Made by a program: the position numbers and the translations under genes. 64,000 bases of DNA, taken from NCBI RefSeq assembly GCF_030372105.1, contig NZ_JAUDBQ010000002.1, positions 248,001 through 312,000 of the forward strand, given 5' to 3'. Below are positions 34,783-52,923 of this stretch, one piece after another; the first letter of the stretch is position 1; every line of letters starts with the position of its first letter. The notes below the pieces were generated by a model that searched no databases, was not told the DNA's origin, and saw only the letters and a program-made list of their open reading frames with translations. Origin of the DNA: Cellulomonas cellasea (GTDB lineage Bacteria > Actinomycetota > Actinomycetes > Actinomycetales > Cellulomonadaceae).

Positions 34783-34793
34783 CGGTCGGCGGA

Positions 34794-36181: not shown

Positions 36182-36188
36182 GCAGAGT

Positions 36189-36205
36189 TTAGTCAGAGGG
36201 ACTAA
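36189..36205 (-). promoter_or_regulatory. Candidate AbiEi operator (inverted repeat)
   Basis: A perfect 6-bp inverted repeat, TTAGTC / GACTAA, with a 5-base spacer, lies 8-24 bases before the AbiEi start. AbiEi proteins are known to bind inverted repeats in their own promoters. A -10-like TAAACT overlaps it on the minus strand. The region is A/T-richer than its surroundings, as expected for a promoter. Confidence 0.6.
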
Positions 36206-36703
36206 GAACTGCATAGTCATACGCCCGATGCCCCTGCCCCGGCTCGACCGACGGGATCATGATGCTGTGACTCTCTCGCCGACGGTGTCGTCGAGCGAGA
36301 GACACAAGAAAGGACCGCAACCCACGAGGGGCAACGGTCCTTCTTGTGCACGACCGCCCTGCGGCGGTCGCCATGGTGGGGTGTTCGTGGATTGCGCTTC
36401 CGCAGGTCAGCGGGCGCAATCTGCGAATGACTCCGGGCGTTCGCACCCTCGAGGCTGCGAATCAGCACCCACCCATTTCGGGCGGCGAGCTTTCGGTGGC
36501 CCGATCGGTCTGGAGCGCAACTGTCCGGAGCCTGTGGCACGGTGCCGGTAGGCCATGCAGGAGCGACTTGAAGCCCTGGTCGTCGATCACATGGACGTGC
36601 TGACCGCGTTCCCGCATGACCCTGTCGACGAAGACGAACTTCCGGCTTGAGCCGCGGCGAGGGTCGGTCAGTCGTCGACCGACATCGAGCCGGGTCAGTA
36701 CGC
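36206..36703. other. Non-coding interval with a double hairpin (36303-36369)
   Basis: No supported gene lies in this 498-base interval between the CoiA-like stop and abiE. Two hairpins sit next to each other. The first has 14-15-base arms (CACAAGAAAGGACCG at 36303-36317, CGGTCCTTCTTGTG at 36335-36348) with one bulge and a 17-base loop that can pair further. The second is GACCGCC/GGCGGTC at 36352-36369. They could end the CoiA-like transcript or form a small structured RNA. A reading frame on the minus strand at 36462-36734 is weak and not called. Confidence 0.55.
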
Positions 36704-38674: not shown

Positions 38675-38868
38675 GGGCCACTTCTACACCCGAGGCCCGA
38701 CACGCGGTCAGCCCAGCGGTTCGCGGGCGGCATCAAGCACCGATCAGCTACCTGACCACCACGACCGGATGCCCACCGCCCGCCCGTTGTTGGCGTGCTT
38801 GCACCGCGCACAAATCCATCGTCCAGTCACCCCCGCAGCTCGTCTGGGCTCCGCCAAGATGGGCCTTT

Positions 38869-40290
38869 GTGGCCTCTCGTAATGCTCCTCTCAACGCTCT
38901 GCAGCTCAACGTCCTGCACTGGGTGAGGGACGGCTGCCCCGACGGTGCCTTCGAGGGCTGGTCACATAGGGTGACCGCCCGTGCCCTGCACAGCCGCGGC
39001 CTCCTCGTAGTCAAAGGGCACGGACCCGAGTGGACTGCCCGCCTGACCGAGATCGGTGTCCACTACCTCGAGCACGGCGCGTACCCCCACACGAAGCCAG
39101 CCCCGAGCACGCCGTCCGCTTCCGCGGGCGTGTCGCCCCCGAGGCGTCGCGCCGAGCCGCGACGGCCAACCCCACAACCGAGTCCACCACCATCTCGCGC
39201 GGCCACATCGCGCGAGACGGGACCAGTCGCACAGCTGATAGCCACGCTGACCGCCGGGAATCCTCCCGTGCTCGTGGACTTCCAAGAGCTGCCCCGATAC
39301 CGGAAACTGATTGCCCACGCTCACAGGCACGACAAGATCCCCGAAGGCATGCGCGTCGCGTTCGAGTACAACGCCTCGCAAGCCAAGTTGCTGGTGAGCC
39401 TCGTTCGAGAACGCGCGGTCGTGCCGGTAGCACGGCTTGTGAATCCGACCGACGTCGTGAAGGTGCTGGCGGAGAGCGAGACGTTCCCGATCGCTGGGGA
39501 GCCCCGCCAACGTGCGCTTCGCATCTTCGAGGCGCTCGTACGTGCCGCTCGCGCCCGCGGGATGACGGTCAGTATCGCGGCAGCGCAACCGGTGCCCGTC
39601 GCTCAACATGGAACTGAAGGCGGTCAGACCGACGAGCTCAGGATCGAGGCCGCGGGCGATGCGTTCACGCTGCGGCTGATCCAGGGCACCGTACGAGTCC
39701 CCCATCAGCCCACCGAGCGGGAGATCTCCCGTGCGCGCTGCGGGTACCTGTTCCCCGACTTCGACGAGATGCCCGACGAGAAGCTGGAAATGCAGCTCGA
39801 CGGAGGCACCGGCAAGGTCCTGGTGAACAGGTGGAAGGAGACCGAGACCCATCAGCTCGAGGACGACCTCGACCAGGTGCTCGAGGAGATCGCGCTGCGC
39901 CAAGGCGCGCTCGCGCAGCGGCGCCTCGAGGACGCTCGCCGACGGGAGGAAGCAGCCGCGCGCGAAGCCGAACGAAAGATCAGGGTGGCGCAGGAGAAGG
40001 AACGCGCCCGAGACGCGTACACCCGCAAGTACCTGCAGGATGCGATGCAGGACCAGGCGACCCGCTGGGCAGACGCGCAAGCGCTGCGGGCATACGCCGC
40101 GGCTGTCAGAACCGCCGCGGCCGACGCGCAGGACGATGCCGCCGACGGCGCCACATGGGCGCAGCAGATCGAGGAACGGGCCTCAGCGCTCGACCCTCTG
40201 CCGGACAGCGTGCGCACGCCAGCGATTCCCTCGCCGTCGGACGCCGACCTGGCGCCGTTCTTGCCCGGGTGGGCGCGGTACGGCCACTGA
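38869..40290 (+). CDS. Unknown coiled-coil protein with N-terminal helix-turn-helix-like part, 473 residues
   Basis: I do not recognise a named family. Residues 1-70 (LNALQLNVLHWVRDGCPDGAFEGWSHRVTARALHSRGLLVVKG) resemble a winged helix. A Pro/Arg/Ser-rich linker (about 75-120) precedes an alpha/beta domain (PVLVDFQELPRYRKLIAHAHRHDKIPEGMRV). A long charged helix at about 325-420 (RQGALAQRRLEDARRREEAAAREAERK) should form a coiled coil. The GTG start lies 194 bases from the divergent CoiA-like gene. Shared coiled coils suggest that the two proteins interact, but this is an inference. Confidence 0.65.
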   Translation: MASRNAPLNALQLNVLHWVRDGCPDGAFEGWSHRVTARALHSRGLLVVKGHGPEWTARLTEIGVHYLEHGAYPHTKPAPSTPSASAGVSPPRRRAEPRRPTPQPSPPPSRAATSRETGPVAQLIATLTAGNPPVLVDFQELPRYRKLIAHAHRHDKIPEGMRVAFEYNASQAKLLVSLVRERAVVPVARLVNPTDVVKVLAESETFPIAGEPRQRALRIFEALVRAARARGMTVSIAAAQPVPVAQHGTEGGQTDELRIEAAGDAFTLRLIQGTVRVPHQPTEREISRARCGYLFPDFDEMPDEKLEMQLDGGTGKVLVNRWKETETHQLEDDLDQVLEEIALRQGALAQRRLEDARRREEAAAREAERKIRVAQEKERARDAYTRKYLQDAMQDQATRWADAQALRAYAAAVRTAAADAQDDAADGATWAQQIEERASALDPLPDSVRTPAIPSPSDADLAPFLPGWARYGH

Positions 40291-40307
40291 TCAGCCGTCC
40301 CGGCAGG

Positions 40308-41225
40308 TCACCACCACCGCTGCTGTCGCGTCCTGATGTAGTGGACGGGGATCTCGGAGGGCTTGAGTGGGCGATCGACGGTCGGGCGCCAGTTGTACGC
40401 CGTGATCCGGTCCTCGGAGTAGGTGAGGGCGATGTGCTCGGCCGCCAGCGAGTGCCCCTGGCGCTTGAGCTCATCCAGGAGCCGTTCTATCAGCTCACCC
40501 AGCCTGTTGACCTCAGCCTCAGCCGCCCCCAAGCGCTCTTGCATCGAGACGGCTCTCTGACCGCACCACGCCCGAAGCAGCTCGTGCCGCGGCCGTACGC
40601 GCTCCAGGTACCACTCGTACTCCCACTCCGGCGAACTTGTGTAGGACTCACCGCGAGTGGTCGAGATCGTCCGACCGTGCTTGGCGGACTGCTGGTACTC
40701 CTTCTCCGCCTTGACGATCCACTCCAGGACGGGCATCGGATTGACGTGGCAAGCCAGTTCAGCGATCACCAGCGCGCCCTCGGGAGACACGACCTGGTCA
40801 CCATCAAGGGTGAAGGAGTGCACCTGCGACGCGAGTTCCACGAAGGGGATGCCGGTGAGGGTCTCGAGCTTCACCGTGTCGGCGACGAAGACTGCCTGGC
40901 GTACCGGGCGCCACGACAGAGTCGCGACGTCGGCAGGGATGAGCAACTCGAACACCTGAAAGATGCCGTCGGACTCGTGTTCGGTCAGATCCGCCTCGGC
41001 AGCCCTTTCCCAGTTGCCCCACACCTCGTCGTACGCCGCGACACCTGACCACGGACCGCGAATGCGGGCAGCCGGAACGTTCTCCTGCTTGCCCTGCGTG
41101 GGGCCATCGAGGAACTCGATGTCGTAGCGCTGGCTCTTCTTCCCGGCCTGAACTGCCACGACTCGCACGCGCTCGGAGGGCGCGTAGTCACGCAGCCGGT
41201 AGATCACCTCGTCCCCGACCTGCAC
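40308..41225 (-). CDS. Unknown protein, 305 residues, with SH3/KOW-like N-terminus
   Basis: I do not recognise this protein. Residues 1-60 (VGDEVIYRLRDYAPSERVRVVAVQAGKKSQRYDIEFLDG) look like a small SH3/Tudor-like beta barrel; the middle is mixed alpha/beta; residues 225-265 are helical and may be a coiled coil; the end is PLKPSEIPVHYIRTRQQRWW. The GTG at 41225 has GAGGAG six bases upstream. It ends 18 bases from the convergent coiled-coil gene, and may be part of the same accessory unit. Confidence 0.6.
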   Translation of the reverse strand: MQVGDEVIYRLRDYAPSERVRVVAVQAGKKSQRYDIEFLDGPTQGKQENVPAARIRGPWSGVAAYDEVWGNWERAAEADLTEHESDGIFQVFELLIPADVATLSWRPVRQAVFVADTVKLETLTGIPFVELASQVHSFTLDGDQVVSPEGALVIAELACHVNPMPVLEWIVKAEKEYQQSAKHGRTISTTRGESYTSSPEWEYEWYLERVRPRHELLRAWCGQRAVSMQERLGAAEAEVNRLGELIERLLDELKRQGHSLAAEHIALTYSEDRITAYNWRPTVDRPLKPSEIPVHYIRTRQQRWW

Positions 41226-41286
41226 CTGGCGCTCCTCAGCGATCGAACCTCGGTGTCTCGCGCCGCAACTCTCCCACTACCGGCCG

Positions 41287-41745
41287 CTACGCGGACCTTG
41301 CGAGCTCGGCGCGAATCTTGGCAAGGACGGTGTTCACCGCGACCTGAGCCTCGATCGCGTTCTTCTTCCACTCCGGGAAGTCGTCGTCGGTCAGCAGCCC
41401 CTGGAGCTTCGCCTCATCACCCACACGTTTGGTCCATTGCGTCGGGAGCAGGTCGGGCCCGAGTAGTCCGATCAAGGTGAGAGCCTCAGCACCCATCCGC
41501 TTCGTCTCGGCGGGATCGCTCGACCCGCCACGATTCAGGTTCTCGAGGAGTCGAGAGAGGACGTCGAGGTCGAACATCAGCTTGGCGTGAGCCAGCGACG
41601 CTCTGCGATCCTCCGCAGCGATCGATCGAGCGTTCCTTCGGTCCAGAGCCCCGATCATCAGCGCCACGACCGCGGCGACAACCGCAGCCAGCGCGACGAT
41701 GCTCTGGACCCAGAGGTTGGCGACATTGACGGCGTCCTGATCCAT
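41287..41745 (-). CDS. Unknown membrane-anchored protein, 152 residues
   Basis: One N-terminal membrane helix at about residues 9-33 (NLWVQSIVALAAVVAAVVALMIGAL) precedes a soluble helical part that holds LDVLSRLLENLNRGGSS and GPDLLPTQWTKRVGDEAKLQGLLTDDDFPEWKKNAIEAQVAVNTVLAKIRAEL. The cytoplasmic side probably holds the C-terminus. The ATG at 41745 is used; ATG 41754 is three codons upstream. No family was recognised. It lies 61 bases beyond the unknown gene at 40308, in the same direction. Confidence 0.6.
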   Translation of the reverse strand: MDQDAVNVANLWVQSIVALAAVVAAVVALMIGALDRRNARSIAAEDRRASLAHAKLMFDLDVLSRLLENLNRGGSSDPAETKRMGAEALTLIGLLGPDLLPTQWTKRVGDEAKLQGLLTDDDFPEWKKNAIEAQVAVNTVLAKIRAELARSA

Positions 41746-41824
41746 GCCGCACATCGTGCTACCCGGCTCTGACACCTCTCGCTGCGCCCGACCAGCCGCC
41801 AACTCGGCGAGCGCATACGGGCCC

Positions 41825-42137
41825 GTCGAGGGCATTCGGCTGGAGCTCACCGACGGCGGCGCCAATCTCGCCGAGTTCACGCTGACCGACGCCAACGAGA
41901 CCCACGTCGCGAGACCGCGAGGACCTCGAAATGGCCCAGCCCTCGGCGCCCGGCATCGACGTCCTCGCGTCCGCCGCGCTGCACGTCCTCGACGAGTCCC
42001 TCACCCGGTGTGATCTGCCGACCCGGGCTTGCTGGGTGCTCTTCTACAGCGAGGCGCCCGCCTAGGAGCATCTGACCGGCACGCGCGGGGAGCTGTCGGT
42101 CTGGACCGTTCTGCCCGACGCGGACAGCCCCGCATGA
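41825..42137 (+). pseudogene. Decayed gene of unknown family
   Basis: Coding-like sequence is spread over two frames. In the first, VEGIRLELTDGGANLAEFTLTDANETHVA is followed near 41910 by a frame change into DREDLEMAQPSAPGIDVLAS. That frame runs to WVLFYSEAPA, meets TAG at 42063-42065, and continues as EHLTGTRGELSVWTVLPDADSPA to TGA. One frameshift and one nonsense codon are therefore visible. The family was not recognised. The lack of a start codon also supports decay. Confidence 0.55.
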
Positions 42138-42280
42138 CAGCACGACGGCCTGGCTGTTCGCCGCCGGGCACCGGTAGAGCCGTCTGGGTGAGCGTCGACT
42201 CGACCACACCATCGAGATACTCGGGGTCGCTACGCTCCCGCTCGGCTACCCGAGACCGGGGCCAGCGACGGGGGGGGACG

Positions 42281-42631
42281 ATGAAGGTCGCACGCAGCGC
42301 CGTCGTGGGCATCTGCCTGGTGATCCTGGCCGGGTGCACCGGGTACGACCCGCTCTACGGCGACACCCAGGACGACTCGTACTGGAACGAGCCTCAGGAG
42401 ATCGACGAGCCCGAGCCACCGATCGAGCCGGCGCCTGACCCTGCTCCGGTGTGGGTATGCGTCTACTCCCCCACCTACGACGACGACTGGCACAACGACG
42501 TCGAGTGCAGCGACGGGATCAACGTCGACCGCCCCTACCTGCGTGAGTGGGACTCGTTCGTCACGGAGAACGAGATCATGGACTCGGCCCAGGAGCACGA
42601 GGACGCCCTCAACTCCGGCGCCGTGCCGTAG
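42281..42631 (+). CDS. Small secreted lipoprotein, acidic and Pro-rich
   Basis: The 116-residue protein begins MKVARSAVVGICLVILAGC, a lipoprotein signal with lipobox LAGC. The mature part is very acidic with a run of Glu/Pro (EPEPPIEPAPDPAP), and three Cys follow (VCVYSPTYDDDWHNDVEC). GGGGGGAC directly precedes the ATG at 42281. It is convergent with the unknown gene at 42665. No function was recognised. Confidence 0.8.
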   Translation: MKVARSAVVGICLVILAGCTGYDPLYGDTQDDSYWNEPQEIDEPEPPIEPAPDPAPVWVCVYSPTYDDDWHNDVECSDGINVDRPYLREWDSFVTENEIMDSAQEHEDALNSGAVP

Positions 42632-42664
42632 GCGCCGGCCGGGGCGTCGCAGCGGGCTGACGAG

Positions 42665-43012
42665 TCAGCTGCGGCCCCCCAGCACCTCTTCGGCGTCCAC
42701 CCGTTCGATCGCCACGCCCGTCCGCGGGATCCACCACCGGTAGTCATCATCGGAGCCGATGCCGCCGGGGTCGGTCAGGTACTCGTGGCGGTCGCCGACC
42801 CGCACGACGCCGAAGTCGCCGCGCTGCGACGCGATCCGCACCAGCGGCACCCAATCGCCGTCGAACGGAAACGCCTGGCTGCCGGGCCCGCGGTCACGTA
42901 GCAGCAGCAGGCGGTCGAGATCGAGGTAGCACACCGTGCTGCTCGTACTCCGAACCGCCCAAAAACCGCCATCGTCGATGCTGAGCTCGGTCTTCTCCAG
43001 TTCTGCTGCCAT
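42665..43012 (-). CDS. Unknown soluble protein, 115 residues
   Basis: MAAELEKTELSIDDGGFWAVRS begins the protein; the segment CYLDLDRLLLLRDRGPGSQAFPFDGDWVPL and YRWWIPRTGVAIERVDAEEVLG follow. The composition is that of a small alpha/beta protein. ATG 43012 is the likeliest start; the frame is open for another 49 codons upstream but that part overlaps the end of the ImmA gene. Not recognised. Confidence 0.55.
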   Translation of the reverse strand: MAAELEKTELSIDDGGFWAVRSTSSTVCYLDLDRLLLLRDRGPGSQAFPFDGDWVPLVRIASQRGDFGVVRVGDRHEYLTDPGGIGSDDDYRWWIPRTGVAIERVDAEEVLGGRS

Positions 43013-43058
43013 GCGGTCACCGTGCGCACACACGCTCCAGTGGCAGTGACATTGGTCG

Positions 43059-44213
43059 CTACGGTGCCGTGGTCCGGACAAGGCGAAGGCGAGGGCGAGG
43101 GTCGTCCTCACCGAGCATCCTGGCCAAGTGATGCGGCGTCCAGCACAGCTCTGACGCAAGATCCACGCGCGTCAGCCCGTGCCGTTCGGCGAGCGCCAGG
43201 GCATCGCGCAGCAGCGACGGCACCTCACCTGGAAAGCTGGTCAGTGGTTCGTCTCGACGCAGGTCGGACATGGTGTTGAGGCGCTGGTACGCGCGCCGGA
43301 CCGAGACGTCAGAGACGATGCGGCACTCGCCCATGCGTCGCACCAACGACTCGGTCGACACACCCCAGGTGGAACTGAGCTGCGTTAGCACGTTCAGGCG
43401 CATCGTCCTGGGCAGGAAGGGCTCGATCTCGGTTCGAGGTGTCAAGAACTCCGCGGCGAACTCGTCGGCCTCCCGTTCCTGAAGCCGATCGCCGGGTCTC
43501 GGGTTGGGGTGGAGCAGGAGGTGCCCGAGCTCGTGCGCGCAGGTGAAACGGAACCTAAACACGGAAGCCGCGCGCTCGGGTGTGATGATCACCATCGGGC
43601 GATCGCCGGCCCAGGTCGAGTACGCGCTCACGCGCGTGACCGCTTCGTCAGTCATCGGGATCAGACCGACGACGATACCGTGGTCTTCCATGGTCGATGC
43701 CAGGTGCGCCACCGGGCCGGCGCCGATGCCCCAGGCCGATCGCAACGCACGGGCAGCGACGCCGGGCACTGTGCCCTCACTCATCTCGGGCAAGTCAACG
43801 GGTGGTAGCTGCACACGCGCTTCGAGAGCATGCGTCAGCTCCCACAGTTGCTCGGCATGGGTCGCGGCCTTCGCACGGTCCTTGGCCCGGGTAGAGCGAA
43901 GACTCCGGAAGTGGGCGTCGGCGGCGTCCACCCTGCCCAGAGGGCGCCCCGCCGTAAAGAACTCGACGGGCACCGCGAGAGTGCGCGCCAACGCGGGCAA
44001 GAGCTCCGGGCGGGGCGTGATCGCACCGGTCTCGTACTGCCCCACGGCAGCCGGTGAGACATGGACCTTCTCGGCAAGCTCGGCCTTCGTCATCTCCGCG
44101 AGCACGCGCGCCTGCGTCAGGCGCGCGGGCTCGAACACTCGCGCGACGTCGTGAGCGGTTCGGCCCGGCGTGGATGAGTGCAGTTCGAACTCGCCCTGCC
44201 GCTCGTCACGCAT
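43059..44213 (-). CDS. XRE repressor fused to ImmA/IrrE-type metalloprotease
   Basis: A 384-residue protein. The XRE helix-turn-helix is at about residues 32-85 (LTQARVLAEMTKAELAEKVHVSPAAVGQYETG). An M78 (ImmA/IrrE) zinc protease follows with HELGH at 227-231 and a downstream EREADEFAAEFL Glu. A second helix-turn-helix-like segment near the end (HGLTRVDLASELCWTPHHLARMLGE) is unusual. The ATG at 44213 lies inside the end of the gene upstream (8-base overlap). Proteins of this type degrade a partner repressor or act as antitoxins; the partner is probably the gene at 44206-44937. Confidence 0.87.
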   Translation of the reverse strand: MRDERQGEFELHSSTPGRTAHDVARVFEPARLTQARVLAEMTKAELAEKVHVSPAAVGQYETGAITPRPELLPALARTLAVPVEFFTAGRPLGRVDAADAHFRSLRSTRAKDRAKAATHAEQLWELTHALEARVQLPPVDLPEMSEGTVPGVAARALRSAWGIGAGPVAHLASTMEDHGIVVGLIPMTDEAVTRVSAYSTWAGDRPMVIITPERAASVFRFRFTCAHELGHLLLHPNPRPGDRLQEREADEFAAEFLTPRTEIEPFLPRTMRLNVLTQLSSTWGVSTESLVRRMGECRIVSDVSVRRAYQRLNTMSDLRRDEPLTSFPGEVPSLLRDALALAERHGLTRVDLASELCWTPHHLARMLGEDDPRPRLRLVRTTAP

Positions 44214-44937
44214 CGTCGTCTGTAGTCCCCGAGAGCTCGTCATTCTCGCCCTGCAGACGCAGCCGCCTGCTCGGCGGCTCGCCGGAGTCGAATCGCCGCT
44301 CGGGTTCGGCAACCGGCGACGGCTTGCGGACCTCGTAGAGCAGGCTCTCCGGGTTGACGAAATCGATCCGCCCGTCATCGGCGAGAACCACCTCGCCCCA
44401 GATGACGTCGTGCAGGCCGGTGACCGAACAAGCGATGGCGACGACCACGACGCGGTAGGCGGCACCGTCGCCTCCGACGGTTTCCACTCGCGCGGACTCG
44501 AGCAGCTCGACGAGCGCCGCATCCCAGTCGTGGCCAAGCAGGCCGAGGTCCAGCTCTCCCTGCAGCGGGCTGGGCTTCATGCGGAACATGGCCGCGCGGG
44601 CTTCCGACGTCACGAAGCGGGACTCAGAGGGGGTGCCACGTCGCCCGTCGCCGTACCGCCATGGGAACAGCACGACACCGTTGACGGCGGGAACCTTGTA
44701 CGGCGCGCGCCCGCCAGGATTCTCCAACGACGACCCCGGAAGGGTGGCGAACTCCTCGAAGCCCTCGAGGATGCCCCGCCAGAACTGGCCGAAGACGCCC
44801 TTGCTGCGCTGCCCAGATGCCTCCTGAGCGTCCGCGGTCGCGATCTGCACCTCTCGGACCAACTCCGGCACGCGAGCCCTGAGGCTCGACCCGACCTCGC
44901 CGAAGGTCTCAACCGCCCACTGCTCTCCGCGCACCAT
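44206..44937 (-). CDS. Unknown partner of the XRE/ImmA protein, 243 residues
   Basis: The sequence begins MVRGEQWAVETFGEVGSSLRARVPELVREV. It has an Arg/Gly-containing central part (FPWRYGDGRRGTPSESRFVTSEARAAMFRM), then a folded domain (ELDLGLLGHDWDAALVELLESARV ... VVVAIACSVTGLHDVIWGEVVLADDGRIDF) and a charged tail (EPPSRRLRLQGENDE). GGAGGCCTC before ATG 44937 sets the start, and its last 8 bases overlap the next gene. No family was recognised. The tight coupling makes it a candidate toxin or effector. Confidence 0.7.
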   Translation of the reverse strand: MVRGEQWAVETFGEVGSSLRARVPELVREVQIATADAQEASGQRSKGVFGQFWRGILEGFEEFATLPGSSLENPGGRAPYKVPAVNGVVLFPWRYGDGRRGTPSESRFVTSEARAAMFRMKPSPLQGELDLGLLGHDWDAALVELLESARVETVGGDGAAYRVVVVAIACSVTGLHDVIWGEVVLADDGRIDFVNPESLLYEVRKPSPVAEPERRFDSGEPPSRRLRLQGENDELSGTTDDDA

Positions 44938-45327
44938 GAGGCCTCCTGACCCATCGACACACACTCGCCCTCCGAGACTGGTGACACTAGCAGTTCAACT
45001 TCAGTTTCGCACGAATTCTGGACCCCATTGCTTCATCGCCATCCCACTTCGACACTCCAACGACCACCGCACCTCGGGCCGAAGCTACCCACGAGCAACC
45101 CATGGCGCGGCAGTTGAGTGACAACCGAGCCGGACCTCCTCTGACCAGCGCGCGCCCCTGCCAAGATCCATCCCGCGGATCTCCGCGCCCACAGAACCCA
45201 GCCCCACGATCACGAGCTCACCAGCCGGGCCCACAACTCGCGCGAACCACCTGGCGACCAGATCGCCGATACGAGAACGCAAACCTGCAGACATTGCACC
45301 CTTCCAACCACAGGAGGCCTGGCCGCC
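44938..45327. promoter_or_regulatory. Divergent promoter region of the ImmA operon and the AAA gene, with candidate XRE operator
   Basis: For the leftward operon a -10-like TAGTGT lies at 44984-44989, and the nested palindromic sequence AACTGAAGTTGAACT lies just upstream at 44992-45006, where an XRE repressor would bind. For the rightward AAA gene AGGAGG lies at 45310-45315. No other gene was found in this 390-base interval, whose A/T content is higher than that of the flanking genes. Confidence 0.5.
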
Positions 45328-46635
45328 ATGATCGACCGGGGAATACTATTGAACGCGTTTCAACCGGCTGCAGAGGTTGACGATCCTGAGCGCTTTGCTG
45401 GTCGCGGTCAACAGGTCCGGCAGCTCGCCGACTCACTACACTCAAACGGGTCGGTGCCACTGATCTTTGGCGACCGCGGCCTGGGGAAATCTAGCCTTGC
45501 GCTGCAAGTTCGCAGAATTGCCATGGGCGACGTCGAACTTCTCGCCCACCTCAAGGCTGAGCGACTGGCACTGCCGGAGGCGAGTGCGTATCTCACATTT
45601 GCGGTGACATGCACAGACTCCACCCAGACGTTTGCGGACCTCCTGCAGGCTCTCGTGAACGCTGCAGAGAGCATCGACAACGTCCCTGACTCAAAGACGG
45701 TCGGCACATCCCAACTTGTGGACCGGACTACAAGGAAAAAACTAACGCTGAAAGTCTTCGAGTTCGAGAGCTCGAAGAAGTACCAAGTCGAAAGCGCGCG
45801 ACTCTCCTATCAGGACCTAAACCTCGAGGAGAAGCTCGTACAACTGTGCGAACTTCTCACGGCGACGTATGGCCAGCCCGTCCTATTTGTAATCGACGAG
45901 ATAGACCGAATGGGCGACACCACCGGGCTGGCGAGCTTCCTAAAGGCGTTTTCGAGTCAGTACCTGAAGTTTCTGCTGGTGGGAATCGCCGGCAGTGTCG
46001 CTGACCTGCTCGGTGACCACCAATCATTGGAGCGTCGACTCATCCCCGTACGGGTGCCGCTTATGACTCAGGTGGAACTCGGACAGATCGTCACAAAAGC
46101 ACAGTCCTACCTTGGTGCGAATCAGATCGACATTACATTTTCCGAACGCGCGATCATCGCCCTCGCACGCATTGCGGCTGGGTTTCCCTGGTTCGTGCAC
46201 GTACTTGGACAGCAAGCTCTCGTCGACGCCGACGCGCGCGGCGACACCATGATCCACACACAGGACATCTCACGAGCCGCAAGTTCGATCGTCAGCAACA
46301 CGTTCGCGCAGCAGTTCTCGGACATCTATCAGATGGCTGTCCGAGACTCATCCCGCCGGGAGACCGTCCTCCGGGCATTTGCTCGATGGACTGATGCGGA
46401 CATCCCAACGGGCGAGGTGTACCGCGTTCTCGAACGTCTCGGGGTCGACGGCGGCTCGACCTATCGATCGCACCTTTGTCGCCCTGAACACGGCTCTGTC
46501 CTGTTCGTTCCGACCTTTCAGCGCCGAGGGCTCGTCCGGTTCAGAAACGAGATGTTCAAGGCGTATGTCCGGATGAGGCCGTCGATCTACGAGGGAGTCG
46601 CCGAGCAAGTAGATCTCGCCTGGGATCAGCGTTAA
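45328..46635 (+). CDS. AAA family ATPase, accessory, lower GC
   Basis: A 435-residue ATPase. Walker A GDRGLGKSS is at residues 48-56, and Walker B VLFVIDEIDRM at about 185-195 with the acidic pair Asp190-Glu191. FAGRGQQVRQLADSL before it resembles Orc1/STAND-type ATPases. The C-terminus (about 330-435) is winged-helix-like (TGEVYRVLERLGV ... FVPTFQRRGLVRFRNEMFKAYVRM). Codon use is unlike the neighbours, with ATA, CTA and TTG codons, which suggests recent transfer. It is divergent from the XRE/ImmA pair and may belong to the same accessory unit. Confidence 0.83.
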   Translation: MIDRGILLNAFQPAAEVDDPERFAGRGQQVRQLADSLHSNGSVPLIFGDRGLGKSSLALQVRRIAMGDVELLAHLKAERLALPEASAYLTFAVTCTDSTQTFADLLQALVNAAESIDNVPDSKTVGTSQLVDRTTRKKLTLKVFEFESSKKYQVESARLSYQDLNLEEKLVQLCELLTATYGQPVLFVIDEIDRMGDTTGLASFLKAFSSQYLKFLLVGIAGSVADLLGDHQSLERRLIPVRVPLMTQVELGQIVTKAQSYLGANQIDITFSERAIIALARIAAGFPWFVHVLGQQALVDADARGDTMIHTQDISRAASSIVSNTFAQQFSDIYQMAVRDSSRRETVLRAFARWTDADIPTGEVYRVLERLGVDGGSTYRSHLCRPEHGSVLFVPTFQRRGLVRFRNEMFKAYVRMRPSIYEGVAEQVDLAWDQR

Positions 46636-46653
46636 AGCCTTAGTTCATGCGAG

Positions 46654-46686
46654 GTGCCACCACCTCCAGGAAGGAAGTGGTGGCAC
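46654..46686. terminator. Bidirectional terminator hairpin
   Basis: A perfect 10-bp inverted repeat (GTGCCACCAC / GTGGTGGCAC) with a 13-base loop lies between the convergent AAA ATPase gene and the small gene at 46693. It is well placed as a terminator for both. Confidence 0.75.
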
Positions 46687-46692
46687 TGGTGC

Positions 46693-47052
46693 TCACGCGG
46701 CGCGCGCGAGCTGGTTGTCTGGCCGCGAGGCCAGGCAGATCCCGCATTGCGGGTTGTACTCACCGGGCTCATGGACGGCCTCGGGGACGTTGCTGACCCA
46801 GTCCGCGAACAGGGCAGCGTGCACGTCGGGGTAGAACACAGCGATCTCGTCCTCGACGTGTGCCATCTGGATGAAGGCGTCCGCGGCGTCGGGCAGGCCG
46901 TGGCAGTACCGCTCCGTGGAGACGGCGGCGAACACCTCGCGCATCTGTAGCAGCCGGTCCAGGTGTCGGCGGCGTCGACGCCCGGTCAGGGGCACGGCGT
47001 ACTCCTCGTCCCGGACGGGCTCGATGGTGTCGGGGTGCGGTGTGGCGGTCAT
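46693..47052 (-). CDS. Unknown small protein, 119 residues
   Basis: The start ATG at 47052 has a strong AGGAGGTCACC ribosome site. The protein begins MTATPHPDTIEPVRDEEYAVPLTGR and has RRRRRHLDRLLQMREVFAAV, a helical middle (ADAFIQMAHVEDEIAVFYPDVHAALFADW), and a C-terminal Cys pair in QCGICLAS that could bind metal. Not recognised. It lies behind a long leader that resembles ribosomal RNA precursor sequence (see 47205-47404). Confidence 0.65.
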   Translation of the reverse strand: MTATPHPDTIEPVRDEEYAVPLTGRRRRRHLDRLLQMREVFAAVSTERYCHGLPDAADAFIQMAHVEDEIAVFYPDVHAALFADWVSNVPEAVHEPGEYNPQCGICLASRPDNQLARAA

Positions 47053-47204
47053 GGTGACCTCCTGGGTTGGGCACGCTCGCCGGCAGGGTGTCGGTCCGTC
47101 GTGCGGAGCGCGGATGCGCTCGCAGGCACTCCGTTGGCGCTGCGTACGGGGGCGCAAGGACGCGCGGGCGTGACCCGTTGCGTGTGGGCGTCGGGTCGGG
47201 TCGG

Positions 47205-47404
47205 GTCGTTGCGGTATCACCTCCTTTCTCATGACGACCCGGCCCCGCCGCCCCGCTGATGACGGGCGCGCTCGAGCCCTGCAAGACCTCGGCCCAGGTC
47301 GGTATCAACTCCTCTCTTCCGGACCGGGCAGGCAGGACTGCCGCTTGCCGCAGCCGTCCTGGCTGCTGGCGTTCTCTGTCTGCGTCTCTGTGGAGTTCTC
47401 AAGG
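47205..47404 (-). promoter_or_regulatory. Leader with rRNA-precursor-like motifs and a 14-base perfect anti-16S match
   Basis: On the minus strand, CTTGAGAACTCCACAGAGACG at 47383-47403 resembles the conserved TTGAGAACT sequence found in actinobacterial rRNA leaders and spacers. Further along, AGAAAGGAGGTGAT at 47214-47227 is fully complementary to the 16S rRNA 3' tail, yet no ATG, GTG or TTG follows at the normal distance. A related GAGGAGTTGATACCG lies about 85 bases before it. Together with the flanks, the 538 bases from 47053 to 47590 hold no gene that I can support. Confidence 0.45.
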
Positions 47405-47590
47405 TGCGGTGCGGTGATCGCGTCAGGCATCGTCGGGCGGCTTCGGCGGGGCGCAATGACCGCACACCACGAGCTCCGCCCGGTCGCGCGGCGGCCGGAC
47501 CGGCTCTGGCTCGCGTGGGTGGGAAGCGCTCGGCACGCGGCTGGATGTGAGTCGGTTGACGCTGGTGGCTCGGACCGGACGATCCCCGCC

Positions 47591-48406
47591 ATGACTGCTG
47601 CGAACACGTTGATGGAACCGACCGAGCTGCGCGACACCCTCAAGCAGTACGTCCCCGCTGGCGTCGAGGCACGGGTGTGGTCGCCCCTGCAGGGGCCCGC
47701 GATCGACCTCGTTCTCGCCGCCGGTCCCCCGCGCTGGGAGCGGGCAGGCAAGGACCTGCAGCTGATCGCGGACCTGGCCTCGTACCTGAGCCGCACGGGC
47801 GCGCAGATCACTCTCGACGCGGCACTCGCCGACACGGCGCTGACTGGGCTGGATGGTCAGCAGGCGGTCGCCGGACGTGCGCCCGGGACCCGCACAAACA
47901 AGCGCGCCCGGTTCCATCGGCTGCAGGCCGCCTACCGCGGTGTGCCGTGGCGTAAGCCGCGACGCGACGACGGGCAGCGCATCGAGTCCCTGCCGCAGCC
48001 CGGCGACGTCGCGCAGATCGTGTCCCTGCTCCCGGCCGACCGTGCCGGCGGGCGCTTGGGCGCCGGCGCCGTGCAGTCCGCCCTCGACGCCGCCCGACGC
48101 GCGCGCGTCAAGGCGCCCGATGCCGAGACCGTGGCCGATGGGAGCCAGACACCACACGCCGACCATGAGCTCGACCCGAAGGTGTGGGCGGCGGCGCGCT
48201 CCTACGCCCGGGCGAACAACGTGGCGCTGACCAAGCGCCTTCTCGACGCCCGTGCCGTCTTCGAGGTCTTCGAGCGCCCTGAGCCGGTGGCGGTTCTCGC
48301 GAGCCGGTTCCACCTGACCCGCCGTGATCTCGAACTCGGGCTGACCCAGCTCGCCATGCTCCCCGTCGAGCCCGCGCCCGAGCACGCCGCGCTGCTGCGC
48401 GGGTAA
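47591..48406 (+). CDS. Helical DNA-binding-like protein of the transposase unit, 271 residues
   Basis: The sequence MTAANTLMEPTELRDTLKQYV begins the protein. Residues 55-115 (KDLQLIADLASYLSRTGAQITLDAALADTALTGLDG ... RTNKRARFHRLQAAYRGVP) resemble the SAM-like core-binding domain of recombinases. An Arg/Lys-rich stretch and a C-terminal helix-turn-helix-like segment follow (EPVAVLASRFHLTRRDLELGLTQL). The first in-frame ATG after a long non-coding leader is taken. It lies 81 bases before the recombinase-like gene. No named family was recognised. Confidence 0.6.
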   Translation: MTAANTLMEPTELRDTLKQYVPAGVEARVWSPLQGPAIDLVLAAGPPRWERAGKDLQLIADLASYLSRTGAQITLDAALADTALTGLDGQQAVAGRAPGTRTNKRARFHRLQAAYRGVPWRKPRRDDGQRIESLPQPGDVAQIVSLLPADRAGGRLGAGAVQSALDAARRARVKAPDAETVADGSQTPHADHELDPKVWAAARSYARANNVALTKRLLDARAVFEVFERPEPVAVLASRFHLTRRDLELGLTQLAMLPVEPAPEHAALLRG

Positions 48407-48487
48407 GGCGTGCGGCCATTGCGCCGCCCTCCCCGGCGAGCACGTTCCGTCTCGTTCACTGACCCGACAGGACGGAAGGCCGCTGCC

Positions 48488-49507
48488 ATGTCCCCCACCC
48501 CCCAGCGCGCCCGGCGCGTATCGAAAGCCCAGGCGCTGCGCCACCGCGAGGCACTGGCTGCCCAGGCGTCCGCACACCGGGACCTCTCCCCCCAGGCCGT
48601 CCGCATCATCGCGACCTTCGACATCACCCGGTACGGCACGACCACGCAGCCGGTGCGGCCGTTCCTGACCGACGCGATCACCCGCAGCCGGCTCACCGGG
48701 CTAGAGAGCATCCGCAAGCACTGCCGGCACCTGACGGCCCTGGCGGTGTTCTCCGACGCCCAGGGGCTGCCGCTGAGAGTCGAGGTGGTGCTCACCACGG
48801 ACAACATCGACGACTACATCCGCCGCGGGATGCACGCCGAGTCCCGGGACAACCGCGCCGAGCGACGCCGCCGCCTGCTGTGGGTCGCGCAGTCCGCCAA
48901 CCCCGGCCCCACAGTCCCGGCCCGGCTCGCCCCGGTCGGCTACCAGGCGGTCAAAGCGCCCTACACCCCCGACGAGCGCGCGACGATCCTGCGCGCTGCG
49001 CGCACCCAGCCGACCGAGCGCGGCGGACAGCAGCTTGCCGCCGTCGTGGCGCTCGGGTTCGGTGCCGGCGCTGACTCGATCGATCTGCGCGAGCTCTGGA
49101 TCCACGACATCACCGACCACGGCCTCGACGGGCTGACCGTGGCCTTCCACGGATCCCGGCCCCGGATCGTGCCCGTGCGGCGGGTCGTTGAGGACCTGCT
49201 GCGACAGGCCATCGCAGGGCGGGCACCTGACGAGCTCGTGATCGGGCAGGAGGTCACCCGCCGGAACACCGCCGCTCGAGTCATCGCCCACGCCGCGCTC
49301 TACAAGGTTCCGCACATCGAACCGGCCCGGATGCGCGCGACCTGGCTCGCCGACCTAATGACCGACACCGTCCCGCTCGCCGTCATCCTGCAGGCCGCCG
49401 GCTTGAAGTCCGCGCGCACCCTCACCGATGTCCTGCCGCACACCAGCGCCTGGCTGCAGGCCAAGACCATCCCCGGCACGACACTCGTGCGCGGAGGTGC
49501 CAAGTGA
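48488..49507 (+). CDS. Tyrosine-recombinase-like protein without catalytic residues, 339 residues
   Basis: The N-terminal domain (FLTDAITRSRLTGLESIRKHCRHLTALAVFS) resembles a core-binding domain. The C-terminal domain follows the recombinase pattern: GFGAGADSIDLRELWIHDI replaces the usual GLR.sE..L, FHGSRPRIVPV matches the beta hairpin, and ARMRATWLADLMTDTVPLAVILQAAGLKSARTLTDVLPH matches the H-x-x-R to Tyr region. The first Arg, the His and the catalytic Tyr are all missing. It is probably a DNA-binding scaffold rather than an enzyme. ATG 48488 is the preferred start. Confidence 0.6.
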   Translation: MSPTPQRARRVSKAQALRHREALAAQASAHRDLSPQAVRIIATFDITRYGTTTQPVRPFLTDAITRSRLTGLESIRKHCRHLTALAVFSDAQGLPLRVEVVLTTDNIDDYIRRGMHAESRDNRAERRRRLLWVAQSANPGPTVPARLAPVGYQAVKAPYTPDERATILRAARTQPTERGGQQLAAVVALGFGAGADSIDLRELWIHDITDHGLDGLTVAFHGSRPRIVPVRRVVEDLLRQAIAGRAPDELVIGQEVTRRNTAARVIAHAALYKVPHIEPARMRATWLADLMTDTVPLAVILQAAGLKSARTLTDVLPHTSAWLQAKTIPGTTLVRGGAK

Positions 49508-51420
49508 ACGCCGACCTACGCCTCGTCCCGACCCAGACCCCGCAGGTGGCAGGCAGCGTTGAGGCCCCCACGGTGACCAAGTTGAGCGGGAAGCGGCTGC
49601 GGCCCGACGCGATCGCCCGCACCGCCCACGTCATCGACACCAGCGGCATCCTCGACATGCTGGTCCCGCCGCGCGTCCCGGGAGCCCGCGGCCGCATCGG
49701 CAAGCTGCGGGAGAACACCCGTCTGTTCCTGATCGGGCTGTCCCTGTGCACCCGGCTCGGGTACGAGACCACCGTCAAGGGCGTGCACGAGGTCCTCACC
49801 GAGTGCCTCGACCGCGAGACCCAGTGGACCCTCGGTGTCCTGCGCCCCCGCGTCACGAAGTCCGACACCCGGCACCCGAAGGGGGCTGTGCCCGGAATGC
49901 TCTCACCCGCGCTGGTCGAGAACGGCAAGCAACGCAAGCGGGTGTTCCCCAACGGCGTCGAGGAGATCAGCTACGACGACCTGCACAACGCCACCCGGAT
50001 CCTGCGTGAGCGCTGGGACTACGGCCACGGGTCCGCACCCGACCTGGACCCCGACGAGCGCGCCCGACGCGCCGCGGTGATCGGCGACGTCGCGCAGGCG
50101 CTCATCGACGCCACCACGATCGACCGCACCGGCGGCACGTTCGCCATCGACGGCACCGGGCAGTGGGCGTGGGAACGAGGCGCCGCACGTGGCAAGCGCG
50201 ACCTGCAGACCGCCGCCGCCGACAAGTCCGGCGAGCAGATCGACGACATGATCGTCGCCAACATCGCCATCGACGACGCCGACGGAAGCACCGCACCCGT
50301 CGACCAGGACGCCCGCGTCCCGAACCGCCGGCAGGTCTCGATGAGCGACGCCGCCTGGGGGTACAAGACCGGCAAGGACGGCCGCAAGGAAGTCGGCTAC
50401 GGCTTCCACCAGCACACCATCGTGCGCGTCCCCGAACCCGGAGCCCGCGGAAGCGAACCGCTCCTGGTCGACGGGTTCGTCCTCGTCCCGGCCAACGCCG
50501 ACGTCGTCGACGTCTCCCTCGACCTCATCGACCGCATCCGCAGCCGCCACCCGTTCACCCTACTGCTCGGCGACCTCCTCTACAGCAACCTGCGCGCCGA
50601 CCGTTGGGCCTACCCCCTCGCCCAGCGCGGCATCGAACAGGCTCTGCGACTGCGCACCGACCAGCACAGGGTCGTCGACATCCAGGGCGCCCAGATGCAG
50701 CACGCCTGGCTGCACTGCCCGTCCGCGCCCATGACCCAGCGACCCCTGCCCGAGGACAACGCCACCGAGGACCGGTGGCACGAGATCTACGACGCCGCCG
50801 AGGACTTCAAGCGCCACTGGGCCTTCGACCGCAAGGAGTCCGGGCTGTCCACCACTCTGACGTCCAAGTGGATCTGCCCCGCCGCCGCCGGACGCGTCGG
50901 CTGCTACGCCCGCCCCGACACCGTCCAGGGCGCCATCGACCTCAACATGCCCCTGATCACCCCGCCGCAGGACTGGGCCAACCGCCCCTGCTGCATCCGC
51001 AAGACCATCGACTTCACCCCCAGCCTCCGCGACCCGAACCACCAACGCAAGATCGCCCAGCGCGACTACGTCGCCACCCGCCGCTGGCGGCAGCGCACCA
51101 ACCTGCGCACCCTCGTCGAAGGCACCTTCGGGATCCTGAAGAACCCCAGCCGACAGCGTCTGCGCCGCGGGCAGAACCGCCTGCCCGGCCTCGCCATGGC
51201 GACCCTCGTCGCCGCCGTGAAGATCTCCGTCTTCAATGAAGAGCAGCTCCGCCTGTGGCACGCCCGCACCGAGGACGGCCCCGTCGACCACCCTCTTCTC
51301 CAGCCCGACCAGCCCGACTGGGGCTATCGCAACCTCACCCAGGACGAGTCCGAAGCCATCGACCGCCAGCACCTGACGCTGCCTGCGGGGGCGCGTTCCA
51401 TCGCAAAGCCGGCGGCTTGA
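49504..51420 (+). CDS. DDE transposase-like protein, 638 residues
   Basis: The likely DDE triad is Asp216 in FAIDGTGQW, Asp357 in LLGDLLYSN and Glu539 in LVEGTFGILKN. SDAAWGYKTGKDGRKEVGYGFHQHTIV, between the acids, matches the substrate loop of IS1182/IS5-type transposases, and the end of the domain has LRRGQNRLPGLAMATLVAA. It is longer than typical IS transposases, with about 190 residues before the first acid. Cys pairs (WICPAAAGRVGC, RPCC) may bind zinc. The GTG start at 49504 overlaps the recombinase-like stop by four bases. Confidence 0.75.
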   Translation: MNADLRLVPTQTPQVAGSVEAPTVTKLSGKRLRPDAIARTAHVIDTSGILDMLVPPRVPGARGRIGKLRENTRLFLIGLSLCTRLGYETTVKGVHEVLTECLDRETQWTLGVLRPRVTKSDTRHPKGAVPGMLSPALVENGKQRKRVFPNGVEEISYDDLHNATRILRERWDYGHGSAPDLDPDERARRAAVIGDVAQALIDATTIDRTGGTFAIDGTGQWAWERGAARGKRDLQTAAADKSGEQIDDMIVANIAIDDADGSTAPVDQDARVPNRRQVSMSDAAWGYKTGKDGRKEVGYGFHQHTIVRVPEPGARGSEPLLVDGFVLVPANADVVDVSLDLIDRIRSRHPFTLLLGDLLYSNLRADRWAYPLAQRGIEQALRLRTDQHRVVDIQGAQMQHAWLHCPSAPMTQRPLPEDNATEDRWHEIYDAAEDFKRHWAFDRKESGLSTTLTSKWICPAAAGRVGCYARPDTVQGAIDLNMPLITPPQDWANRPCCIRKTIDFTPSLRDPNHQRKIAQRDYVATRRWRQRTNLRTLVEGTFGILKNPSRQRLRRGQNRLPGLAMATLVAAVKISVFNEEQLRLWHARTEDGPVDHPLLQPDQPDWGYRNLTQDESEAIDRQHLTLPAGARSIAKPAA

Positions 51421-51482
51421 GCTCGGCGCGGCGCTCCAGGGCGTGTCGCCCGGTGCCCTAACCTCCACCCTGGAGGGGCTAC

Positions 51483-52457
51483 ATGGCACCGATTCAGCTG
51501 GACAACACGCTCGTCGTCGGCATTGCCTCGAGCGCTCTGTTCGATCTCACCGAGTCCGACGGGGTCTTCCGAGCGAAGGGCGAGGCGGAGTACCGGAAGT
51601 ACCAGGAGGAGAACCTCCACAACACGCTGGACCCCGGCGTGGCGTTCACCTTCATCAAGCGTCTCCTCTCGCTCAACGACTTGGCCGACACCCCGGGCGA
51701 CCCGCTCGTCGAGGTCATCGTGCTGTCACGCAACGACCCGGACACGGGTCTTCGCGTCATGAAGTCGATCGAGACGCACAAGCTCGCGATCACCCGAGCC
51801 GTCTTCATGCAGGGTCGATCGCCGCACAGGTTCATGCCCGCGTTCAACATGTCGCTGTTCTTGTCCGCAAGTGCGGACGACGTTCGAGAGGCAGTCGGCG
51901 AGGGCCTGCCCGCGGGCCAGGTGCTGCCGTCGCTTACCGTCGAGGACGGCTCGAAGGACCTACGCATCGCCTTCGACTTCGACGGTGTCCTCGCGGATGA
52001 CGCCTCTGAGAGCGTGATGCAGGCAGATGGACTTCCCGCCTTCCATGCGCACGAGGTCGCGAACCTCACGGAACCTCACAACCCGGGGCCGCTCAAGCGA
52101 TTCCTCGAAGCAGTCAACCGCATCCAGGACCACGAGGAGGCGAAGCGACTTCGCGATCCTGAATACCGCATCCGCGTGCACGTCGCGCTCGTCACGGCGC
52201 GCAACGCACCCTCACACGAGCGCGCGATGGCGAGCCTCAAGCAGTGGGGCGTTCGCGTCAATGACGCGTTCTTCCTCGGCGGCGTCGAGAAGGCGCGAGT
52301 ACTCGAGATTCTCAAGCCGCACATCTTCTTCGACGACCAACGCGGCCACCTCGCCAACGCCGCCAAGGTCGCGCCCAGCGTGCACGTGCCCTTCGGCGTG
52401 ATCAACCAGCAGCACGCCGACATCGTCGCGTCCGAGACCTCGAGCCCACCGTCCTGA
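51483..52457 (+). CDS. 5'-nucleotidase (cytosolic NT5C1-like, HAD fold)
   Basis: A 324-residue protein resembling cytosolic 5'-nucleotidase type 1. The HAD catalytic motif IAFDFDGVLADD is near residues 161-172, followed by LVTARNAPSHERAM and IFFDDQRGHL with the second acid pair. N-terminal segments NTLVVGIASSALFDLTE and RFMPAFNMSLFLSA also fit. GGAGGGGCTAC lies before the ATG. It would dephosphorylate nucleoside monophosphates. A strong hairpin follows the gene, and the tmRNA gene is convergent. It is the boundary between accessory and core-like DNA. Confidence 0.85.
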   Translation: MAPIQLDNTLVVGIASSALFDLTESDGVFRAKGEAEYRKYQEENLHNTLDPGVAFTFIKRLLSLNDLADTPGDPLVEVIVLSRNDPDTGLRVMKSIETHKLAITRAVFMQGRSPHRFMPAFNMSLFLSASADDVREAVGEGLPAGQVLPSLTVEDGSKDLRIAFDFDGVLADDASESVMQADGLPAFHAHEVANLTEPHNPGPLKRFLEAVNRIQDHEEAKRLRDPEYRIRVHVALVTARNAPSHERAMASLKQWGVRVNDAFFLGGVEKARVLEILKPHIFFDDQRGHLANAAKVAPSVHVPFGVINQQHADIVASETSSPPS

Positions 52458-52478
52458 ACGTCCTGCGCAGAAGACAAG

Positions 52479-52510
52479 TGAGGCCCGCCCCCAGCAGGGG
52501 ACGGGCCTCA
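52479..52510. terminator. Bidirectional terminator for nucleotidase gene and tmRNA
   Basis: Outer arms TGAGGCCCG/CGGGCCTCA and inner CCC/GGG pairs form a long hairpin with a short loop around CAGCA. It lies 22 bases after the nucleotidase stop. It can serve the convergent tmRNA gene as well. Confidence 0.8.
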
Positions 52511-52523
52511 TCGCAATCTACGA

Positions 52524-52541
52524 AGAATGCTCTCGCATTCT
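52524..52541 (-). terminator. Short hairpin after the tmRNA 3' end
   Basis: AGAATGC/GCATTCT forms a perfect 7-bp stem with a 4-base loop, 13 bases past the tmRNA CCA end. It probably acts as a terminator or RNase processing signal for the tmRNA precursor. Confidence 0.6.
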
Positions 52542-52553
52542 ACGAAGACCTCA

Positions 52554-52923
52554 TGGTGGAGGTGGCGGGAATCGAACCCGCGTCCGATGACGTGGAACCA
52601 GGACTTCTCCGGGCGCAGCTCGCTGCGCTCTTTCTCAGCCCTCGCGATCTAGCAAGCGTGTCGCGAAAGCGGGCTCAGTTGTCTAAGAGTCCCCACAGCC
52701 CCGACAACGAAGGCTGTGAGCAGTGGCTCTCTAGATGACGCCAGTTACCGAGTCGAGAGCACTCTCGGGCTGACGGACTTCAGGACTCGCTCAGGCGGCG
52801 AGTGCGAAGTCGGTGCGCTTGGAATCGGCACCTATTGGTTTGCGCGGATCGTTAACGAGATAACCGTGCGTCCTCGGCCCGCTTCTCCTGGCTGAACGAC
52901 CACCGTCGAAACCGATCACCCCC
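52554..52923 (-). ncRNA. ssrA: Transfer-messenger RNA (tmRNA)
   Basis: The 370-base RNA begins GGGGGTGATCGGTTTCGACG and ends with GGTTCGATTCCCGCC, CACCTCC and ACCA. The first seven bases (GGGGGTG) pair with CACCTCC, giving the tRNA-like acceptor stem. The tag frame encodes ADSKRTDFALAA followed by TGA (about 52795-52830 region), ending in the ALAA degradation signal. It rescues stalled ribosomes together with SmpB and tags products for Clp proteases. The gene is a known hotspot for integration of mobile DNA, and the accessory zone lies next to its 3' end. Confidence 0.96.

Follow-up and report, generated by a model that had tools for sequence, protein, structure and literature searches.

The window analysed here is a stretch of 64,000 nucleotides from Cellulomonas cellasea (contig NZ_JAUDBQ010000002.1, positions 248,001–312,000). 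It carries three consecutive genes on the forward strand, P0001 (47591–48406), P0002 (48488–49507) and P0003 (49504–51420), the last two of which overlap by 4 bp (49504–49507). A preliminary description of this DNA had placed the three reading frames and the overlap correctly and had read the trio as a helical protein, a catalytically dead tyrosine recombinase and a DDE transposase-like protein. It saw the trio only. We found that these genes, a candidate transposition module, are part of a 16.2-kb element (36378–52552) inserted at the 3′ end of ssrA, the gene for transfer-messenger RNA (tmRNA), with 16-bp inverted ends that match at 12 of 16 positions. The larger element, its ends and the adjoining tmRNA gene had been missed.

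P0003 alone matched no Pfam model at E ≤ 1. It matched the IS1182 model (NCBIfam NF033551) at E = 5.7e-4 with 18.9 bits and did not reach the cut-off of that family (270 bits). Its relatives place it more clearly: at E ≤ 1, the IS1182 model was matched by 9 of 12 aligned DDE proteins (best 4.2e-11) and Pfam DDE_Tnp_1_6 by 7 of the 12 (best 6.1e-6), so that the search with hidden Markov models (HMMs) proposed in the preliminary description identified a DDE_Tnp_1_6/IS1182-like DDE transposase through the family members. The alignment contains 12 invariant columns, among them W528, R535 and the proposed triad D216, D357 and E539, which is conserved in all 12 members despite an identity to P0003 of 18–24% for ten of the eleven others. 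One further frame, at locus L028, is open (5943–7790), and its portion past the conserved glutamate reads unlike the other members. Judged by these residues, P0003 would be the protein that catalyses transposition.

P0002 matched the PHROG integrase family at E = 2.8e-5 and Pfam Phage_integrase at E = 0.17 only. A 12-member P0002 profile searched against the Protein Data Bank (PDB) matched a single chain, the XerC-like recombinase 4a8e (E = 2.1e-5), with the catalytic domain aligned. The HMM search thereby recovered the tyrosine-recombinase pattern that had been recognised in the second protein, and the catalytic residues reported as missing are indeed replaced: D196 stands at ArgI, A280 at HisII, L306 at HisIII and V315 at the tyrosine position. 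ArgII (R283) is the sole member of the Arg-His-Arg-His/Trp-Tyr set that is left. Among 25 P0002-like proteins, ArgII and the arginine of an R-x-V-P motif are present in all 25, HisII in two, ArgI in one and HisIII in none; six carry a tyrosine at the aligned position, and in no protein is the recombinase active site complete. A genuine integrase of the window's genome (L202) was used to check the columns in a second alignment. Its ArgII, the histidine of its GH and its tyrosine fall in the checked columns; its ArgI is unaligned, and the ArgI column rests on the alignment to chain 4a8e.

The helical protein said to precede this pair is present, and its kinship to P0002 had been overlooked: P0001 is a degenerate, shrunken paralogue. 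In a profile–profile comparison, an alignment of P0001 and four relatives (L017, L132, L137 and L142) matched the P0002 family over 236 columns with a probability of 98.6 and E = 1.4e-15. The unit therefore consists of two recombinase-derived proteins and a transposase. At L130 and L143, both proteins encoded upstream of the DDE gene match the P0002 profile along long stretches, and at L024 and L026 a P0001-like stretch seems, by eye, to be fused ahead of the P0002 part.

Relatives of the DDE gene were found in 10 of 99 genomes related to the window's genome when P0003 alone was the query, and in 31 of 396 Actinomycetota genomes with a 12-member profile; both counts contain the window's own genome and are not additive. 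The window's genome has three DDE copies, on contigs C12, C33 and C7, and a contig scan yielded one close relative, in Cellulomonas carbonis (L017, 74% identical). We compared a first set of 14 loci (the window, L017 and L018–L029) with a second set of 20 (L129–L148), taken from 18 of the 30 other genomes of the profile search and chosen mainly by score with the neighbourhood unseen. The preliminary description had suggested looking for further copies with conserved gene order, and such copies exist: in 13 of 13 loci of the first set (the window, L017 and L018–L028) the gene immediately before the DDE gene encodes a P0002 relative, and in the second set a P0002 relative was detected in 13 of 20 loci. 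The 4-bp overlap is possible in 10 of 11 first-set relatives if the DDE start closest to the upstream stop is taken; in the second set, first-start reading-frame coordinates alone give it in 9 of 20 loci (L129, L131, L132, L133, L134, L135, L140, L141 and L143).

These loci share a genomic address. The 3′ end of a tRNA or tmRNA gene faces the DDE stop codon in 13 of the 14 loci of the first set, which include the tandem copy L029, and in 16 of 20 second-set loci (29 of 34 overall), and the genes concerned encode tRNAs for Leu, Ser, Pro, Gly, Met and Tyr as well as tmRNA. The distance from the DDE stop to the RNA gene is 222–269 bp in 11 first-set loci and 116–243 bp in 14 second-set loci, so that 25 of the 34 fall between 116 and 269 bp. 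It is about 1.1 kb and 1.4 kb in the window and L017, with one cargo gene between, and 1.6 and 4.0 kb in two tmRNA loci of the second set. The loci that have no facing RNA gene are L029 (a second copy in G030), L131 and L142, which lie close to contig ends, and L143 and L148. As a control, 30 Actinomycetota loci that match the IS1182 model, 17 of them above its cut-off, contained no tRNA or tmRNA gene, with flanks of up to 1.5 kb.

The ends were searched for as a 5-bp repeat beginning at tRNA position 73 (the discriminator base) combined with 16-bp inverted repeats. Of 27 loci, 13 came from the first set and 14 from the second; not among them are L029, six second-set loci (four lacking an RNA gene, L145 with only 1.2 kb, and L146, which was not entered) and G003, where the DDE gene is absent. 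The search reached p ≤ 0.01 in 13 of the 27 (14 at 0.05), and nine shifted frames gave 0–1 and 0–3 loci at the two thresholds. Both ends had first been seen from tandem copies, on contig C33 of G000 (29.8 kb) and in G004 (7.1 kb, followed by a 762-bp copy); inverted ends were found next in G005 (34.7 kb) and G019 (18.2 kb), whose repeats are the best, at 16/16. The consensus of the element ends is GGGGTGTTCaCGgAAc. The 762-bp copy in G004 (7115–7876 outward from tRNA-Leu; L018, L030) has both ends, lies in tandem and is too short for a DDE gene; it is likely a non-autonomous form. At the right end, a second direct copy of the repeat lies 23 bp away (mean identity 0.56, shuffled maximum 0.369, n = 28), and 18 of 28 right ends carry a strong hairpin (z ≤ −3). 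Shared 8-mers added nothing in the right ends (6 of 29, 8 in the shuffle); in the left ends, the 8-mer CAGGTCAG occurred in 7 of 15 against 4 in the shuffle and was likewise rejected.

This search found both inverted repeats and a target duplication in the window (p = 0.002), features for which the preliminary description had suggested aligning the flanks. The left end was located by a degenerate pattern, having been missed with the right-end motif and exact 10-mers. It consists of the duplication ATGGT (36373–36377), identical to 52553–52557, and the forward-strand terminal repeat GGGGTGTTCGTGGATT (36378–36393), which resembles the left end of the C. carbonis element. The right terminal repeat (52537–52552, reverse strand; GAGGTCTTCGTAGAAT read inward) is accompanied by an internal second copy (52517–52528, reverse strand) 22 bp from the terminal one, close to the family peak of 23 bp. 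The right duplication (52553–52557) corresponds to A73-C-C-A of the tmRNA plus one base, and ssrA itself (52554–52923, reverse strand; ARAGORN; Rfam RF00023, E = 1.6e-62) is intact. The C. carbonis element, 15.6 kb long and with a left end at p = 0.002, carries the same module beside ssrA and other cargo.

In G002 and G004, ssrA is directly followed by a terminator-like stretch, and these sites served as empty sites. At its left end, the C. carbonis element is flanked by DNA that matches the sequence immediately following ssrA in G002 (E = 5e-12) and in G004 (E = 3e-9), E-values that, like the others for flanks, refer to very small databases. The flank of the window element matches a displaced copy at 2701–2830 (E = 1e-7) better than either site. 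Of 14 left ends, 9 are flanked on the outside by a strong hairpin (z ≤ −3; sequences shuffled in two-base blocks); two of the 9 (G000 and G004) abut the right end of the next tandem copy, which is the hairpin in question. From the flank matches and these outside hairpins, the element therefore appears to separate the RNA gene from its terminator on insertion, bringing its own hairpin. A 75-bp segment of the window (2728–2802) shares about 90% identity with the sequence that immediately follows ssrA in G002 and G004; it therefore seems that about 50 kb (2803–52555) built up at ssrA stepwise, with the trio's element closest to the gene.

Other ssrA copies occur near some loci. At L062 (G006), an incomplete ssrA copy of 313 bp and an additional copy of the right end (7705–7797 and 10947–11257) are probably remnants of earlier ssrA insertions, and at L066 (G005) a 26-bp copy of the ssrA 3′ end lies about 16 kb from ssrA (near 3050 and 19285), the usual pattern of integrase islands. 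The 26-bp copy and the 313-bp fragment seem to be part of other islands and were rejected as traces of the present family.

Taken at the level of sequence, the incomplete recombinase active sites, the intact DDE triad, the gene order, the fixed insertion point and the inverted, 5-bp and right-end repeats point in one direction. We consider it fairly probable that the trio is the transposition module of a family of site-specific DDE transposons of Actinomycetota that are homed to tRNA ends by dead recombinases. P0003 would recognise the inverted repeats, one copy at the left end and two about 23 bp apart at the right, and join the element to a staggered cut, which would produce the 5-bp duplication. 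P0002 and its degenerate partner P0001, having kept the recombinase fold and lost the active site, would bind the tRNA gene and recruit P0003; P0002 would read the 3′ part of the tRNA or tmRNA gene and position the transposase so that the cut begins at the discriminator base. The element would thus land at the end of the RNA gene, its transposase end facing the gene and its own hairpin at that end, with variable cargo, which in the window is partly defence-like. We assign the reading of the tRNA gene to P0002 and not to P0003 because of the IS1182 control and the precedent of TnsF, described in the passages on Tn6022 in Faure et al. (2023; PMC10293859) as a recombinase-derived, inactive target selector that is required, with TniQ, for transposition into comM. 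On these grounds the dead recombinase would pick the target. The elements may still be mobile.

The preliminary description had offered two interpretations. The first, a DNA-binding scaffold that guides a transposase, is the better supported, by the conserved pair, the absence of a full active site in 25 proteins, the retained triad and the one exact position; the guiding itself we infer. The second, a domesticated defence or rearrangement system, finds no support, since the trio sits inside an element with transposon-like ends and short direct repeats.

Defence-like genes are found among what look like cargo genes. Next to the left end is a CoiA nuclease-like gene (36704–38674, reverse; Pfam CoiA_nuc, 1e-12), followed by reading frames without a Pfam family at E 0.01 at 38869–40290 (forward), 40308–41225 (reverse) and 44206–44964 (reverse). 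Between the last two lies a gene for a helix-turn-helix and IrrE/ImmA-type peptidase protein (43059–44156, reverse; Pfam Peptidase_M78, 3.1e-21; HTH_31, 3.8e-13). An AAA ATPase (45328–46635, forward; Pfam AAA_16, 1.3e-8) was considered as a TnsC-like core component and rejected, since phmmer matched it to itself only and to no other searched locus. A small divergent gene (46693–47232, reverse), whose true start is probably further downstream, recurs in 7 of 13 first-set loci by iterated profile search. Between P0003 and the right end stands a 5′-nucleotidase-family gene (51483–52457, forward; Pfam, 2e-124) of the candidate defence family PDC-S08 (PADLOC, 1.4e-136). Just beyond the left end lies an AbiEi/AbiEii toxin–antitoxin pair (34797–36220); G003 has a stretch of 71.6% identity elsewhere in its sequence. 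A break in homology with G003 at 34783 was tried as the element end and rejected. The comparison with G003 also revealed a long reading frame (28355–30538) whose internal repeats are about 66% identical to one another at the DNA level.

We also searched for other recombinases. PF00589 has four matches in the window's genome, all outside the window and none on contigs C33 or C7; PF00239 has no match anywhere in that genome, and rve (TnsB-type) has a single one, at C12:91565, which likewise falls outside the window and on neither C33 nor C7. To judge by these profiles, the elements of the window's genome hold no other recombinase of the three tested families. TniQ had no match in the window's genome in a search without a positive control (no control genome matched either), and TniQ/TnsD was absent among the reading frames scanned with Pfam.

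Three other explanations have to be weighed. The islands might be integrated by tyrosine recombination, through an active recombinase acting in trans or residual activity of P0002 or P0001; the direct repeat would then be the crossover overlap, the inverted repeats the core sites, and the DDE protein a factor in excision or regulation. Insertion at tRNA and tmRNA 3′ ends is the classic habit of integrase islands, the tyrosine in six of the 25 relatives would fit, and so would the 26-bp ssrA copy in G005. We nevertheless regard this explanation as quite improbable. No P0002-like protein has the full catalytic set, PF00589 is without a match in the window and on C33 and C7, the triad is invariant in strongly diverged proteins, the inverted repeats reach 16/16 around a repeat of 5 bp from position 73, and the right-end repeats argue in the same sense. 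In integrase islands, the duplicated part of the RNA gene is usually longer. That P0001–P0003 are passengers, or a defence or rearrangement operon in tRNA islands moved by something else, would suit the defence-like surroundings (the IrrE peptidase, the CoiA nuclease, PDC-S08 and, in the C. carbonis element, a gene that by eye we take to be Shedu-like). This appears highly improbable, given that in 25 of 34 loci a distance of 116–269 bp separates the DDE stop from the RNA gene, beside the repeat-bearing end whose inverse marks the other end, and that Pfam recognises, at E 0.01, none of ten other reading frames in the 7.1-kb G004 element. An unlikely possibility, finally, is that P0003 itself recognises the tRNA gene, with P0002 and P0001 in accessory (architectural, regulatory or immunity) roles. 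Ordinary DDE elements can have an intrinsic target preference, and of the seven second-set loci in which P0002 went undetected, six still lie by a tRNA or tmRNA gene. Against this stand the tight 4-bp coupling of the P0002 and P0003 genes, the TnsF precedent and the 0 of 30 IS1182-model loci near a tRNA gene, a control in which the partners of the transposases were not examined.

Several observations weigh against a transposon homed by dead recombinases. The tyrosine is present in six of the 25 P0002 relatives, and the second copy at L130 has ArgI, ArgII and the tyrosine, though neither histidine; these proteins look like remnants of an active ancestor. The PF00589 search is blind to proteins as divergent as these, so that an equally divergent active recombinase could escape it, and inverted arms around a short overlap resemble the core of an att site. 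No P0002 relative was detected in 7 of the 20 second-set loci and no tRNA or tmRNA gene at L143 and L148. The predicted structures of P0002 and P0003, from two-sequence alignments (window and L017), are unusable (mean pLDDT 41.1 and 29.7). No left end reached p ≤ 0.01 in 14 of the 27 loci, including the C7 copy of the window's own genome (p = 0.78), and the best repeat is 6–7 bp, not 5, in G056, G474 and G030; the rule of a 5-bp repeat from position 73 was fixed after some of the same loci had been seen, for which the shifted frames act as a guard. The right-end hairpin is not strong (z > −3) in 10 of 28 cases. The flank of the window element matches the empty ssrA sites weakly (E = 0.009 and 0.032), and a search with it in 121 family genomes gave no convincing empty site, other matches being short (E = 3e-4 to 1e-3); the G002 and G004 sites were used instead. 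Lastly, the sole plasmid relative, on pSCL3 of S. clavuligerus, has no tRNA gene within about 5 kb and may point to a second target mode.

That plasmid was the one record matched with P0003, and P0002 matched none; one scan of viral contigs gave no P0003 relative. On pSCL3 (L212, 3304–6032), the DDE gene has a gene upstream in the P0002 position, both annotated as hypothetical, and by eye an end-like sequence past the DDE gene.

We lean towards a broader proposal, namely that dead tyrosine integrases, which had earlier been specialised for tRNA genes, were captured as a target selector by an IS1182-like DDE transposase, independently of Tn7 and TnsF and without an AAA+ or TniQ adaptor. This would be an unrecorded transposon superfamily, a system of two or three proteins able to insert as much as tens of kilobases at a single exact base beside many different tRNA genes. 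No description of the family was found in the open full-text literature, a search that did not cover most subscription papers or any bioRxiv preprints; in the S. clavuligerus annotation, the DDE protein and the protein encoded upstream of it are both carried as hypothetical. If the proposal is true, tyrosine integrases have on more than one occasion lost catalysis and become target selectors, in this case for transposases unrelated to Tn7, and tRNA and tmRNA islands without a findable active integrase would be explained. It would also provide a compact site-specific DDE insertion system, in which the variation of targets among relatives (Leu, Ser, Pro, Gly, Met, Tyr and tmRNA) would allow the specificity determinant to be mapped by swaps.

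Among known systems, tyrosine-integrase islands in tRNA genes and ssrA share the genomic address, size range, cargo and tandem accretion. The present elements differ from them in having no full recombinase active site, a 5-bp repeat from position 73 and a DDE transposase. For eukaryotic DNA transposons that target small RNA genes, we know of no recombinase-fold partner. They have the kind of target (PMC3706591) in common with the present family and differ in their hosts. The IS1182 family (NF033551) has a related DDE core, recognised in 9 of the 12 members. P0003, at 18.9 bits, is remote from it, and the large cargo element, the dead recombinase partners and the fixed tRNA or tmRNA target set the present family further apart. 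Recombinase-in-trio (RIT) elements carry several recombinase-fold proteins per operon, these being active tyrosine recombinases without a DDE transposase. The same likeness, several recombinase-fold proteins in one operon, and the same differences hold for Tsy as presented by Faure et al. (2023; PMC10293859).

Tn7-like elements and CRISPR-associated transposons (CASTs) that home to tRNA genes also place a DDE transposon at a position by a tRNA gene; tRNA-Leu and tRNA-Val are named as targets in a methods passage of the same paper (PMC10293859). The transposase of the trio belongs to another superfamily, and a TniQ-type selector was not found in a search that had no positive control. By analogy, the closest precedent would be TnsF of the Tn7-like Tn6022, in which a DDE transposon, a recombinase-derived inactive selector and a fixed target gene are likewise combined (PMC10293859). 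TnsF combines two core-binding-like domains with a partial catalytic domain and also bears zinc fingers, works with TnsA, TnsB, TnsC and TniQ, and targets comM. The trio's elements have in place of an rve-type transposase one that is DDE_Tnp_1/IS1182-like, and lie at tRNA and tmRNA 3′ ends; the likeness to TnsF would lie in the pairing of a DDE transposase with a recombinase-derived protein that has lost its active site.

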